A stretch of 64,000 nt of DNA, from the NCBI RefSeq assembly GCF_028290435.1, contig NZ_JAQGJV010000076.1, positions 1 through 64,000 on the forward strand. The letters are read 5' to 3'. Source of the DNA: Devosia sp. (lineage in GTDB: Bacteria > Pseudomonadota > Alphaproteobacteria > Rhizobiales > Devosiaceae). Below, in pieces: positions 54,544 to 58,654 of the stretch. The position numbers and the translations under genes were made by a program. The notes under the pieces were generated by a model. That model worked only from the letters and a program-made list of their open reading frames with translations. It was not told the origin of the DNA and did not search any database. The stretch's first letter is position 1; each line of letters starts with the position of its first letter.

Positions 54544-57081
54544 ATGCAGCATGAAACCCCCCTGATCACCATGATCGTCGCGGGTCTTGTGCTTGCATAT
54601 ATATTTGGGATGATCGCGAACCGGTTCAAGATGCCCCCCTTGGTGGGATATCTGTTCGCCGGCATGCTGGCCGGGCCCTATACGCCAGGCTTTGTGGCCG
54701 ACCAGGCGCTGAGCGCCGAACTTGCCGAAATAGGCGTGATCCTGCTTATGTTCGGCGTCGGCCTGCATTTTTCGCTCAAGGACCTGTTGAGCGTGCGGGC
54801 CCTGGCTATTCCCGGGGCATTGGTACAGATCGCCTTCGCCACACTGCTCGGACTGGGGCTGGCGACGCTGCTGGGCTGGGGCCTGGGCGCCGGCATCCTG
54901 TTTGGCCTGGCGCTATCGGTGGCCTCCACCGTGGTGCTGCTTAAGGCCCTGCAGGACAAGCGCCTGATCGAGACTGAAAAGGGCCGCATCGCCGTCGGCT
55001 GGCTGATCGTCGAAGATCTCGCCATGGTGCTGGCTCTGGTGCTGATCCCCGCCTTTGCCAGCCTGTCAGGCAATGCCGAAAGCGCCATCCACGATCCCTT
55101 CGTGTCGTTCGTCGAGCGCATCCTGGGCATGCAGATCGGCATTTATGGCGTGATTGCACTGACCCTGGTCAAGGTTGCGGCCTTTGTGGGCTTCATGCTG
55201 ATCGTCGGACGCCGGGCGATTCCCTGGGCCTTGCATGCCACGGCCCATACCGGCTCGCGCGAATTGTTCCGTCTGGCGGTTCTGGCCATTGCGCTGGGCG
55301 TGGCGCTGGGTTCCTCGCTATTGTTCGGCGTGTCGCTGGCGCTGGGCGCATTCTTTGCCGGCATGATGCTGGCGGAAAGCGAACTGAGCCAGCGGGCAGC
55401 GCAGGAAACCCTACCGCTGCGTGATGCTTTCGCGGTGCTGTTTTTCGTTTCCATCGGCATGCTGTTCGACCCCTCCATTCTGGTCAGCCAGCCGCTGCAG
55501 GTATTGGCGACGGTGTTCATCATCGTCATCGGCAAGTCGGTGGCGGCCTTTGCGATCGTGCTGCTGTTCCGTCGACCGGTGGCCACGGCGCTGACGATTT
55601 CGGCCAGTCTGGCGCAGATCGGTGAATTCTCGTTCATCCTGGCGAGTATGGGCGTGTCGCTGGCGATCCTGCCCAAGGAAGGGCAGGATTTGATCTTGGC
55701 CGGTGCGTTGATTTCCATCGTGCTCAATCCCGTGGTGTTCTGGGCCGTCGAGATGGCCAAGCCGCGGCTGGAGCAGCGGGTAGCGCGCCGTCGCGGCGAG
55801 CCCGAAGTGCGGATCGAGCCGGGCGACAATACCGTTGCGGTCGAAGGCGCGGTTGTGCCCGAAGCGCCCGCGGCAGAGGCGCCGGTTTCGGACCATGAGG
55901 ACGAAGCGCAGCCAACGCGGCAGAAGGATCATACGATCCTCGTCGGTTTTGGCCGGGTAGGTCGCGTCGTCGGGCAGGGCCTCAAGGATGCAGGCGCATC
56001 GCTGGTGGTGATCGAGGATTCCGATCACAGCATCGCTTATGCGCGCTCCAAGGGCATCGAAGTGGTTAGCGGCAACGCGGCCAGCGCCGACGTGCTGAAG
56101 CTGGCCAACCTGGCGCAGGCCAAGGTGTTGATGATGGCCATCCCCAATGGTTTTGAAGCCGGGACGGTGGTCGAGGTTGGCCGCAAGATCAATCCGGGCA
56201 TCCGCATTCTGGCGCGGGCGCATTCGGAAGACGAAGAGAACCATCTGCGGCACCTGGGCGCCGACCAGGTGATCATGGGCGAGCGCGAGATCGGCCTGGG
56301 CATGCTGGCCTGGCTGCGCGGCGAACGCACCGAGGATATCGTCGACACGGCCCCGGTGCCGCCGGTGGAGCCCAAGCTGGCACCGGTGGACAATATTCTG
56401 GAAAAGGCCGCGGCGACCGCTGCGGTGGTTGCGGCCCAGCCCCCGGTCGCGGCCGAGGCGCCCGTGCCGGTGGAACTGGTGGCGACGCTGGAGCCGATCG
56501 ATGCGGCCGAACCTGCCGCCGTGCAGCCCGCCGCAATGGCGGAAGCCGCGGCCGTGGCGGCACCCGAAAACGTCATCGAATTGCCGCCGCCCGAAGCGCC
56601 GGCTGCGCCGCTCGAGGATGTGGCGGTGATCAAGGCGGTCGAGGCAGCGCCGGTTGGGGCGACGGAACCGGTGGTCGGTGAAGAGGCCACTATCGTCGAG
56701 GCTGCAACACTGGAAAGCGTCGAGGCGACGCCGGCCGTGGCAGAGACGCCGCAGGAGATTGCCGAGCCCGCCTTGCCTGCCGAAGAGACGCCCGAAGAAG
56801 AGGCGGCGGAAGACGAGATTTATGAAGGCAGCCCGGTGATCGTGCCGGAGGCGCCTGGGATTGCGGATGCGGCCCCCGACGAACTCGCGGCTGTGCCTCC
56901 GGCCGAGCCGGTGAGCGAGGTGCAGGCCGAAATCACGGCCGAGGCTGAGGCAGAAATCGAAGCTGAGGATGAAGTCTCCGAGGGTAGTCCGGTAGTTTCG
57001 CCTGAAGCCGAGCCTGCGCCGGAGCCGAGCAAGCCCGAAGAGTCCAAAGTGCCGCCTGTCGTGCCAGAACCCAAGATTTGA
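54544..57081 (+). CDS. CPA2-family monovalent cation:proton antiporter (Kef/YbaL-like) with acidic C-terminal tail
   Basis: 845 residues. About 12 membrane helices (residues 1-400) carry the Na/H exchanger fold (MPPLVGYLFAGMLAGPYTPG; VGLHFSLKDL). An RCK/TrkA-N NAD-binding domain spans about 460-580 (HTILVGFGRVGRVVGQGLKD). Then comes a 250-residue tail rich in A, P, E and V, far beyond the usual family length of about 560-620. The tail has a repeated unit, EIYEGSPVIVPEA near 758 and EVSEGSPVVSPEA near 809. CGGAGGCGC precedes the ATG. Role: K+ or Na+ efflux gated by nucleotide or redox state; tail function unknown. Confidence 0.9.
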   Translation: MQHETPLITMIVAGLVLAYIFGMIANRFKMPPLVGYLFAGMLAGPYTPGFVADQALSAELAEIGVILLMFGVGLHFSLKDLLSVRALAIPGALVQIAFATLLGLGLATLLGWGLGAGILFGLALSVASTVVLLKALQDKRLIETEKGRIAVGWLIVEDLAMVLALVLIPAFASLSGNAESAIHDPFVSFVERILGMQIGIYGVIALTLVKVAAFVGFMLIVGRRAIPWALHATAHTGSRELFRLAVLAIALGVALGSSLLFGVSLALGAFFAGMMLAESELSQRAAQETLPLRDAFAVLFFVSIGMLFDPSILVSQPLQVLATVFIIVIGKSVAAFAIVLLFRRPVATALTISASLAQIGEFSFILASMGVSLAILPKEGQDLILAGALISIVLNPVVFWAVEMAKPRLEQRVARRRGEPEVRIEPGDNTVAVEGAVVPEAPAAEAPVSDHEDEAQPTRQKDHTILVGFGRVGRVVGQGLKDAGASLVVIEDSDHSIAYARSKGIEVVSGNAASADVLKLANLAQAKVLMMAIPNGFEAGTVVEVGRKINPGIRILARAHSEDEENHLRHLGADQVIMGEREIGLGMLAWLRGERTEDIVDTAPVPPVEPKLAPVDNILEKAAATAAVVAAQPPVAAEAPVPVELVATLEPIDAAEPAAVQPAAMAEAAAVAAPENVIELPPPEAPAAPLEDVAVIKAVEAAPVGATEPVVGEEATIVEAATLESVEATPAVAETPQEIAEPALPAEETPEEEAAEDEIYEGSPVIVPEAPGIADAAPDELAAVPPAEPVSEVQAEITAEAEAEIEAEDEVSEGSPVVSPEAEPAPEPSKPEESKVPPVVPEPKI

Positions 57082-57097: not shown

Positions 57098-57526
57098 ATG
57101 ATTTCGCAGAAGGCCAAATATGCTTTGCGCGCGCTGGTATCGCTGGCGCGGGCTCAGCGTGGCGCCACGATGATGATCGGCGATATTGCGCGCGAGCAGG
57201 CGATCCCCAAGAAATTTCTCGAACAGATTCTTCTGGAGTTGAAGCGCGCCGGGTTTGTGGCCAGCCGGCGCGGGCGGACCGGAGGCTATGAATTGCTCAA
57301 GGCGCCCGAGGAAATTCGCTTCGGCGAGGTGCTGCGGCTGATCGATGGGCCGATCGCGCCGCTGCCCTGTTTGTCCAAGATTGCCTATCGCAAATGCGAG
57401 GATTGCCGCGAGGAAAGCTCCTGCGAAATCCGGCATGTGTTCGAGCGGGTGACGCTGGCAACGCGGGCAGTGCTCGACAGTACAACTCTGGCGGATTCGC
57501 TGCGGCTGGAAGATCTTCCGGTCTAG
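57098..57526 (+). CDS. Rrf2-family transcriptional regulator
   Basis: 142 residues with an N-terminal winged helix (AKYALRALVSLARAQRGATM; QAIPKKFLEQILLELKRAGF; SRRGRTGGYELLKAPEEI). Four cysteines at 91, 100, 103 and 109 (CLSKIAYRKCEDCREESSC) fit an iron-sulfur or redox-sensing site. It starts 17 bases after the antiporter stop on the same strand and may be co-transcribed, which would link the antiporter to redox or metal status. Confidence 0.92.
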   Translation: MISQKAKYALRALVSLARAQRGATMMIGDIAREQAIPKKFLEQILLELKRAGFVASRRGRTGGYELLKAPEEIRFGEVLRLIDGPIAPLPCLSKIAYRKCEDCREESSCEIRHVFERVTLATRAVLDSTTLADSLRLEDLPV

Positions 57527-57529
57527 GCA

Positions 57530-57559
57530 AAAGAAAAGGGTCGCATTGCTGCGACCCTT
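57530..57559 (-). terminator. Intrinsic terminator for the 24-codon gene (minus strand)
   Basis: AAGGGTCGCA (57536-57545) and TGCGACCCTT (57550-57559) form a perfect 10-bp stem with a 4-base loop. On the minus strand the stem is followed by TTCTTTT. On the plus strand the tail is weaker (CCATGAG), so it mainly serves the small gene at 57615-57689 but could also stop the Rrf2 transcript. Confidence 0.85.
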
Positions 57560-57614
57560 CCATGAGTATTCGGCCTCAAGTGCCTGACGATTTCTCGTCT
57601 GAAGGAAGTGTGTT

Positions 57615-57689
57615 CTAGCCGAGGCTTACCCCCGACACGAACACATTATATCCAAGACCCTCTTCGAGCGCCGTAATCTCATAAGCCAT
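57615..57689 (-). CDS. 24-residue peptide gene with extended Shine-Dalgarno
   Basis: A short frame starting MAYEITALEEG and ending NVFVSGVSLG, net acidic, with a hydrophobic glycine-rich C-terminus and no cysteine. Just upstream of the ATG (57687-57689) the plus-strand sequence TTGGATCACCTCCTT (57689-57703) equals the usual 3' end of 16S rRNA. On the minus strand the whole ribosome site is therefore complementary to the anti-Shine-Dalgarno region, with GGAGG 8 bases from the ATG. A TATAAT box lies about 110 bases upstream and a terminator 55 bases downstream. E10 and Y14 have the E-x-x-x-Y spacing of PqqA, but other PqqA features and pqq genes are absent. I do not recognise the peptide; a secreted, signalling, RiPP or regulatory peptide is possible. 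Confidence 0.62.
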   Translation of the reverse strand: MAYEITALEEGLGYNVFVSGVSLG

Positions 57690-57764
57690 TGGATCACCTC
57701 CTTCACGTTGGTTGAACATGAGGAAAGCATGCGCCCGTTTTTCCGACCTGTAAATAGGCCCATT

Positions 57765-57807
57765 TATGAACGAAACGCGAACTAACTATGAACGAACACG
57801 GATTATA
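57765..57807 (-). promoter_or_regulatory. Promoter-like box and direct repeats upstream of the 24-codon gene
   Basis: TATAAT on the minus strand (57807-57802) is a perfect -10 box; no good -35 is seen. TATGAACGAA occurs at 57765-57774 and 57787-57796, 22 bases apart (two helical turns), just downstream of that box. The pair could bind a regulator at or after the start site. Inference from position. Confidence 0.5.
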
Positions 57808-57844
57808 TTTTACGTGATCGACAGTGTGGCGTGAACGACTCAGT

Positions 57845-58654
57845 TCAGGCGCGCGCCTTTTTGGGGCGCGAGCGGAGCTGGAAGATGGTGGCGGCGAAGA
57901 CGCCGAGGGCGACGATGCCGATGATGATGGTGGCCAGCGCATTGACGTCGGGCGAGACGCCGAGCTTGACCTTGGAGAAGATCACCATGGGCAGGGTGGA
58001 CGAGCCGGGGCCGGAGACGAAGCTGGCAATCACCAGATCGTCGAGCGAGAGGGTGAAGCCGAGGAGCCAGCCGGACACCAGGGCGGGCGCGATGATGGGC
58101 AGGGTGATGTCGAAGAAGACCCGGGCCGGCGTGGCGCCGAGGTCCATGGCGGCTTCTTCGAGGCTCATGTCGAAATCGGCGAGGCGCGACTGCACCACGA
58201 CGCACACATAGGCCATGCAGAAGGTGGAATGGGCGAGGATAATGGTGAGCATGCCGCGGCCGGCGGGCCAGCCCAGAATGCTCTCCATGCCGACGAACAG
58301 CAGCAGCAGCGACAGGCCGGTGATGACGTCGGGCATCACCAGCGGCGCCGAGACCATGCCGGAGAGCACCGTGCGGCCGCGGAAGCGGCGGAAGCGGACC
58401 AGGGCGATGGCGCAGAGCGTGCCCAGCACCAGCGCGATGGTGGCCGAGACGGCGGCGATGCGCAGGCTCAGCCAGGCGGCGCCCAGCATTTGGGGATCGG
58501 CGAACAGCTCGCCATACCACTTGGTGGAAAAGCCTGACCAGACGGTGACCAGCTTGCTTTCGTTGAACGAGAACACGACCAGCGAAATGATCGGCGCGTA
58601 GAGAAAGACGAAGCCCAGGATCGCCATTGTGGGCAAGAACCAGCCGCGGCGCAT
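57845..58654 (-). CDS. potI: Polyamine ABC transporter permease, PotI/PotC type
   Basis: 269 residues with six membrane segments and the coupling loop MSLEEAAMDLGATPARVFFD. The N-terminus FLYAPIISLVVFSFNESKL is the PotC/PotI signature. It overlaps the upstream permease by one base (TAATG). Last gene of the importer operon. Symbol assigned by family and operon order; putrescine versus spermidine is inferred from the PotF-like receptor. Confidence 0.9.
   Translation of the reverse strand: MRRGWFLPTMAILGFVFLYAPIISLVVFSFNESKLVTVWSGFSTKWYGELFADPQMLGAAWLSLRIAAVSATIALVLGTLCAIALVRFRRFRGRTVLSGMVSAPLVMPDVITGLSLLLLFVGMESILGWPAGRGMLTIILAHSTFCMAYVCVVVQSRLADFDMSLEEAAMDLGATPARVFFDITLPIIAPALVSGWLLGFTLSLDDLVIASFVSGPGSSTLPMVIFSKVKLGVSPDVNALATIIIGIVALGVFAATIFQLRSRPKKARA

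Follow-up and report, generated by a model that had tools for sequence, protein, structure and literature searches.

A small unit on the minus strand of a Devosia contig, set between an ABC permease gene and an Rrf2 regulator gene, appears to be an mRNA-like riboregulator, whose ribosome site would be masked by an imitation of the 16S rRNA tail within the same RNA and unmasked by ribosome loading; we put the probability of this reading at about 0.55. By alignment, the element can be placed with the RNA family CC2171 (Rfam RF01867) as a divergent relative, though it lies under the formal cut-off of that family. Coordinates refer to the window, i.e., the whole 64,000-nt stretch of DNA that was analysed, in which the unit and its flanks comprise the following features.

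57845-58654, minus strand: ABC permease gene, flanking the small unit
57098-57526, plus strand: Rrf2 regulator gene on the other flank, convergent with the RNA gene
57749-57754, minus strand: -35 hexamer TTTACA of a conserved promoter-like site; TTTACA, TGGACA or TAGACA stands at the same place in most of 35 genus elements
57726-57731, minus strand: -10 hexamer CATGCT of the promoter-like site, spacer 17 nt, kept in relatives
57690-57704, minus strand: extended ribosome site GAAGGAGGTGATCCA, complementary to the 16S rRNA tail (pairing and motif searches)
57615-57689, minus strand: 24-codon reading frame, ATG to TAG, MAYEITALEEGLGYNVFVSGVSLG (open reading frame and genus alignment)
57678-57684, minus strand: predicted 5' strand of helix P1, TTATGAG, covering the final base of codon 2 and codons 3 and 4, found in the minimum-energy fold
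57560-57566, minus strand: predicted 3' strand of helix P1, CTCATGG, adjoining the terminator
57695-57705, minus strand: predicted 5' strand of masking helix P2, TGAAGGAGGTG, which is the ribosome site (compensated insertion in Rhizobiaceae)
57600-57610, minus strand: predicted 3' strand of masking helix P2, anti-Shine-Dalgarno segment CACTTCCTTCA, starting 4 nt past the stop codon
57536-57559, minus strand: intrinsic terminator AAGGGTCGCA-gcaa-TGCGACCCTT, then a T-rich tail (terminator rule and scan)
57537-57713, minus strand: full-length match to Rfam RF01867 (CC2171) in the Rfam search, 35.2 bits, below the 75-bit cut-off

The first-pass annotation had described a free-standing 24-codon gene with an exceptional ribosome site and a terminator 55 nt past its stop, and in these points it proved correct, i.e., the frame is as described and the terminator stem starts at that distance. 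When the 64 kb were scanned on both strands in 25-nt windows at 5-nt steps, the two best of 25,590 windows for pairing with the 16S tail both fell on the leader of the element. The tail used as reference, GCGGCTGGATCACCTCCTTTCTAAGG, was taken from the 16S 3' end of a second genome in the family (L124), and against it the leader forms 14 contiguous pairs, or 15 with a G-U (-26.5 kcal/mol); the commoner form in the family, GAAAGGAGGTGATCCAG, would match this tail over 17. The sequence AAGGAGGTGATCC occurs with zero mismatches at 57691-57703 and within two mismatches at one further place in the 64 kb. The complementary 14-mer TGGATCACCTCCTT is found a single time in the whole assembly, at the element, and the genome's own 16S gene did not turn up in that search. 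In Caulobacter, 75.4% of genes are given as starting without Shine-Dalgarno-type sites (profiling passages of PMC4117421).

At the gathering threshold, Rfam returned zero matches in the window. At a looser threshold all ten loci submitted, the window element included, aligned to CC2171 over its full length, and one of them, L045, which has the same 5' block as the window element, passes the cut-off with 95 bits. The window match (E 1.6e-5, model positions 1-159 of 159) is the sole one in the 4.58-Mb genome and contradicts the earlier "matches no family", which had been said of the peptide. Within the class, 61 of 289 genomes had a match to CC2171, nine of them above the cut-off; of 14 named control genomes one did, that of Caulobacter vibrioides. 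The element and CC2171 are co-linear in a 5' block with an extended ribosome site, a closing helix to the pre-terminator sequence and a terminator. The family block CGAAAGGAGGUGAUCCARUGUCU has a close form in the window, GAAGGAGGTGATCCAATGGCT, linked to it by a graded series through the genus and the order, and the closing helix before the terminator is represented in the window by 7 pairs, two of them G-U. The Rfam model differs in that it contains no reading frame and places the ribosome site in a 2-bp mini-hairpin only, and elements of our genus differ from CC2171 in the masking segment 3' of the stop. The original Caulobacter paper on CC2171 is reportedly that of Landt and others. The literature searched yielded no function in print for CC2171, and the name appeared in two relevant papers: as one line in a table of R-scape-improved structures, in the part of the Rfam 15 paper that concerns it, and as entry MH_s33 in the sRNA list of Mesorhizobium huakuii (PMC5596092).

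Conservation of the frame and the ribosome site in close relatives had been set as a test beforehand, and both are kept. A DNA match was obtained in 40 of 61 genomes, the element's own included, and these comprise each of the 37 genus genomes drawn. Among genomes of the genus as a whole 71 of 75 gave a match, and one of the four misses (G189) has the block after all (L052). The exact block AAGGAGGTGATCCARTG occurs in 62 of 199 genomes of the order, in a single copy each, compared with 0 for the reversed-pattern control. In a named collection there are at least 120 loci; 80 of these were listed, of which 76 were new and long enough for frame analysis, where new means not identical over the first 80 nt; many are related to earlier loci. 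The titles of the 80 are unspecific (e.g., Proteobacteria bacterium) or belong to alphaproteobacterial organisms. Among the matches listed are Rhodobacterales, Hyphomicrobiales, Azospirillum and Roseomonas-type bacteria, Caulobacterales and a Sphingomonadales MAG.

An origin from a mobile element was considered and discarded, a search of 50,697 phage records having given nothing credible (best E 1). Among plasmids, 16 records matched: 12 large replicons of Rhizobium and Sinorhizobium (E 7e-2 to 2e-2), one of Shinella (E 0.8) and three of Thioclava, the last in the terminator end only (2e-2 to 2e-1). Six IMG/VR contigs labelled viral (L356-L361) contain the block AAAGGAGGTGATCCARTGTC, which may be host flank or prophage cargo in them. 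Transcription attenuation of a neighbouring gene was rejected likewise, as no neighbour is shared across six loci from six families. For this comparison the 20 longest neighbouring frames at ten loci were collected, several of them spurious-looking, and ten frames at six loci were scanned. Nine of the ten carry Pfam domains with no relation to one another (M3 peptidase, ABC1, EAL, short-chain dehydrogenase, CobW, methyltransferase, CoA transferase, decarboxylase and EcKL/APH) and one is without any; two annotated plasmid copies have other neighbours. Given these unrelated neighbours, no downstream gene under cis control is seen. In the window, the Rrf2 regulator has a cysteine cluster C-x8-C-x2-C-x5-C and scores below the cut-offs of the named IscR, RirA, NsrR and CymR models. 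The plus-strand gene at 54544-57081 encodes a Sodium/hydrogen-exchanger family protein with a TrkA-N domain and a long low-complexity C-terminal tail rich in Ala, Glu, Pro and Val.

A promoter-like site keeps its place relative to the ribosome site. Promoters were scored in the first 40 genus loci, which comprise 35 unique elements; by raw counts, the best -10 ends 20-22 nt upstream of the ribosome site in 30 of the 35, and the spacer is 17 in 31. Outside the genus, the best -10 ends 19-23 nt upstream in 96 of 117 elements, also by raw counts. The conserved site at 57754-57726 thus points to a transcription start that is probably near 57719 and to an RNA of about 190 nt; the transcript of about 260 bases suggested at first is unsupported. 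A start further upstream is also possible, given that a generic promoter scan flags 57835-57807 and misses the preferred site. The TATAAT box of the first-pass annotation is present at 57802-57807, but as a promoter it is unsupported, as it reads TCTAAT in the 95%-identical neighbour L002 and relatives keep the other site. The direct repeat pointed out with it also exists, as two copies of CGTTCATA 22 bp apart, but a role in the unit is unsupported.

The reading frame is kept far more strictly than its product, and across families it mostly runs to a stop at 14-31 codons, well above what shuffled sequence gives. All 70 unique genus frames have 22-24 codons, with GTG (47) or ATG (23) as the start and TAG (43), TAA (24) or TGA (3) as the stop. 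The four distinct gaps within the genus frame are each 3 nt long, and gaps up- and downstream are of mixed length. The alternative frames are not kept open, frame 1 being closed before codon 20 in 48 of 70 and frame 2 in 70 of 70. Outside the genus, a stop at 20-31 codons is found in 101 of 115 elements (10 stop earlier, 4 later), while shuffling gives a mean of 22.7 and a maximum of 36 in 200 shuffles. A further sample of 76, picked by the block GAAAGGAGGTGATCCARTGTC alone, has 41 stops at 20-31 codons, against a shuffled mean of 14.4 and maximum of 23, and none under 14; the other frames have 14 codons (9), 18 (22), 33 (one) or 57-59 (three). In all, 219 loci were scored, with L033 and L121-L127 outside this scoring; 12 loci had more than three mismatches to the core, and 11 of them were left out of the frame counts, while L117, with a spacer one base longer, was retained after manual adjustment of its frame.

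Codon positions 1, 2 and 3 are similarly variable in five equal-length groups (e.g., 1.02, 1.05 and 1.00), and their entropies in the genus are 0.79, 0.80 and 0.82. In the genus dN/dS is 0.86, or 0.74 when the first six codons are left out, and codons 7-16 show some coding-like conservation, with third-position-rich variation at some of A/V-L-E-E-G-L-G. The peptide may have a role at these codons, and LG[FY] within them coincides with predicted RNA pairing. The recurrent peptide words EQPS and TWIVAS are two frames of a single RNA motif, TGGA...CCTYY. The 24-mer gave zero matches in Pfam and NCBIfam at E up to 10, and E10 and Y14 vary in the genus, so that the E-x-x-x-Y core is not kept; the candidate of a PqqA-type RiPP precursor, raised by the earlier likeness to PqqA, was rejected on these two grounds. 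The frame is kept open, and its amino acids are barely constrained between families.

Some elements have frames of other forms. The 14-codon form (L256, L262, L266, L267, L279, L288, L290, L303 and L185-L189), in which the named loci are from Bradyrhizobium or Bradyrhizobiaceae, is invariant in every letter from about codon 7 until shortly before its end, and the entropy of 0 over 10 unique frames argues that this stretch is fixed at the RNA level. Rhodobacterales-type loci (e.g., L268, L278, L286 and L313) run to 18 codons and have, besides a second internal GGAGAGAGGTG, a TCTCCTT-type segment about 110 nt or more past the start, i.e., a different masking layout. In the Azospirillum loci L275, L299 and L308 the same 5' block precedes a frame of 57-59 codons with a start that by eye resembles a signal peptide (MSHGA...LFGLAALLTAG), as though the gene of a small exported protein had captured the strong leader or been fused to it.

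Two pairings of the RNA can be predicted. In P1, about codons 3-5 pair with the bases preceding the terminator across families, in strand pairs such as CATTGTC/GACAATG, ATGAGATT/AATCTCAT, GTGAGA/TCTCAC and CATGGTT/GACCATG. Over 56 distinct 5' strands, each represented by one element, P1 covariation scores 9.27 against a permuted 6.11 (sd 0.39; maximum 7.30 of 1000), a kind of test that relatedness inflates; eight elements without a terminator by rule, some with a clear hairpin and a poor T tail, were left out. The significance lies in this cross-family permutation alone, as single-element searches gave p of 0.02 or less in 5 of 183 cases and P1 of the window is not significant by itself (p 0.70).

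In P2, the ribosome site pairs with a segment near the stop, over 11 pairs in the window, and a P2 of at least 6 bp within 22 nt past the stop occurs in 65 of 70 genus elements, compared with 35% of shuffles. Contiguous pairing has a mean z of 2.23 in the genus and 1.09 elsewhere, and the duplex energy departs modestly from dinucleotide shuffles (mean z -0.70 and -1.10, respectively). In Rhizobiaceae, which have an A inserted in AAGGAAGG, the partner reads CTTCC in 10 of 10 and CTCC in 0 of 10. The tail-mimic motif, whose codon frame differs between elements, occurs in 66 of 115 elements, while shuffling gives 18.5 (maximum 29), and in 46 of 76 of the GAAAGGAGGTGATCCARTGTC sample, against 13.8 (maximum 24). 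All these conservation statistics correct only partly for relatedness. Covariation between the mimic and the base before the start codon was not detected (35 of 66 against a permuted mean of 33.3, reached by 575 of 2000). The genus association of the start base with codon 12 (ATG with CTT 17, CTG 0; GTG with CTG 28, CTT 9) runs in the direction that pairing would predict, and it was left uncounted as shared clade-wide. P1 and P2 cross, which implies a pseudoknot or two alternative folds; folding programs cannot show both and pick either for the window, depending on the ends given. The fold of the window element has a z of -5.2, with 0 of 200 shuffles as stable. In the genus members L027 and L029, a palindromic stretch of the GAAAAGTGGAC...CACTTTTCC type, like an inserted repeat, lies between the stop and the anti-Shine-Dalgarno segment; L147 is grouped with them by its longer spacing, and further genus members have additional hairpins downstream. 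The loops tolerate insertions and the pairing segments stay.

We hypothesize that the element produces a free-standing RNA of about 190 nt that would start near 57719 and end at its own terminator. Its 5' end would combine a stretch complementary to the free 16S tail with an RTG start and the short frame. This 5' stretch could pair internally with the anti-Shine-Dalgarno segment near the frame end (P2), and codons 3-5 with the pre-terminator sequence (P1); either pairing would bury the start region, and the unbound RNA would be closed. The earlier reading of the unit as heavily translated is unsupported. What the analysis shows is the relation to CC2171, the promoter-like site, the kept frame and a covarying pairing potential; we infer from the sequence that the RNA is transcribed and translated and that it switches by strand exchange, in which a 30S subunit with an accessible tail would displace the internal mimic. 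The ribosome would translate a peptide that is itself not strongly selected and stop where the mimic is covered or already unwound, by which the site would stay open; when loading ceases, the RNA would reclose. The product would thus be an RNA whose state reports ribosome loading. In our genus and in Rhizobiaceae the terminating ribosome would cover the masking segment and in many others would have unwound it, but Rhodobacterales-type elements misfit this position, with a CCTCC-like segment far beyond the 18-codon frame.

A bolder version, which we offer only tentatively and would not expect to hold in full, takes the whole CC2171 family as a stand-alone sensor of ribosomes with an exposed 16S tail (e.g., without bS21 or on newly finished 30S subunits). 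The real tail would open the mimic by strand exchange, and the frame, selected for translation and not for its product, would serve only to place the ribosome at a set distance. Extended sites are favoured by bS21-less ribosomes in Flavobacterium, in the portion of PMC9976891 that bears on this, and for E. coli a passage of PMC13009471 proposes that bS21 impedes extended pairing; these cases make tail accessibility plausible as a signal, and its link to the CC2171 family is our inference.

Other explanations have to account for the same frame and pairings. An ordinary small mRNA for a functional peptide, with RNA structure merely tuning its translation, would agree with the strictly kept frame and with the dN/dS of 0.74 and third-position-rich variation from codon 7 of the genus. 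We nevertheless consider it improbable, since the peptides of different families share by eye little beyond the codons of P1 or the tail mimic, one RNA motif is read EQP in some families and TWI-AS in others, the codon positions vary alike and the domain databases give no match. The opposite view, in which the RNA is an entirely non-coding sRNA with the 16S tail or the ribosome sites of mRNAs as its pairing partner and the frame is incidental, has in its favour that the family is entered as sRNA both in Rfam and in the Mesorhizobium paper and that the conserved stretches are the pairing stretches. Profiling of 133 Caulobacter ncRNAs is likewise reported to show untranslated regions (PMC4117421, in passages where CC2171 is unnamed), which counts against the translation step of the preferred reading. 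One third of 54 new small frames of S. meliloti sit on annotated sRNAs, according to the relevant part of PMC10117765. A frame kept far above chance, in which start and stop codons interchange and gaps measure 3 nt, makes the non-coding view unlikely as well.

Titration of ribosomes, by an RNA that sequesters 30S subunits or shields the 16S 3' end while it matures, draws on the complementarity to nearly the whole free tail. It would presumably require very high abundance and would leave the spacing of the start codon, the frame and the self-masking without explanation, and we regard it as very improbable. That a chance open frame met a lucky ribosome site is practically refuted by conservation: the conserved block, the CC2171 matches, the spread in the genus, the loci of the named collection, P1 covariation and the kept frame all stand against it, and nothing was in its favour once relatives had been seen. 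The self-masked riboregulator opened by ribosome loading is the reading that we prefer.

This riboregulator resembles several known systems in single traits. The type I toxin mRNA of Helicobacter pylori is reportedly also a small mRNA in which folding governs access to the ribosome site, but the peptide of the element is not conserved. The likeness to PqqA is limited to the E/Y spacing and comes without a family match. The rnTrpL/peTrpL of Sinorhizobium, in the passages of PMC10117765 that describe it, is likewise a small alphaproteobacterial RNA with a short frame that is also called an sRNA; it is a leaderless trp attenuator, whereas the element has a strong ribosome site, a promoter-like site of its own and no conserved downstream gene seen. 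The rpsU leader of Flavobacterium, as covered in part of PMC9976891, shares an exceptionally strong extended Shine-Dalgarno sequence where this is not the rule and is read by ribosomes without bS21, but it sits on the bS21 gene itself, while the element stands alone, is much shorter and masks itself.

An RNA catalogued as a non-coding sRNA spans many alpha-proteobacterial families with a near-complete complement of the ribosome tail, and CC2171-type RNA keeps a reading frame while hardly keeping the peptide. The element of the window provides a single well-defined locus for testing the switching model. If this model is true, ribosome loading would be read directly by a small RNA, and this in a class whose model member, Caulobacter, has no such site at most of its genes.
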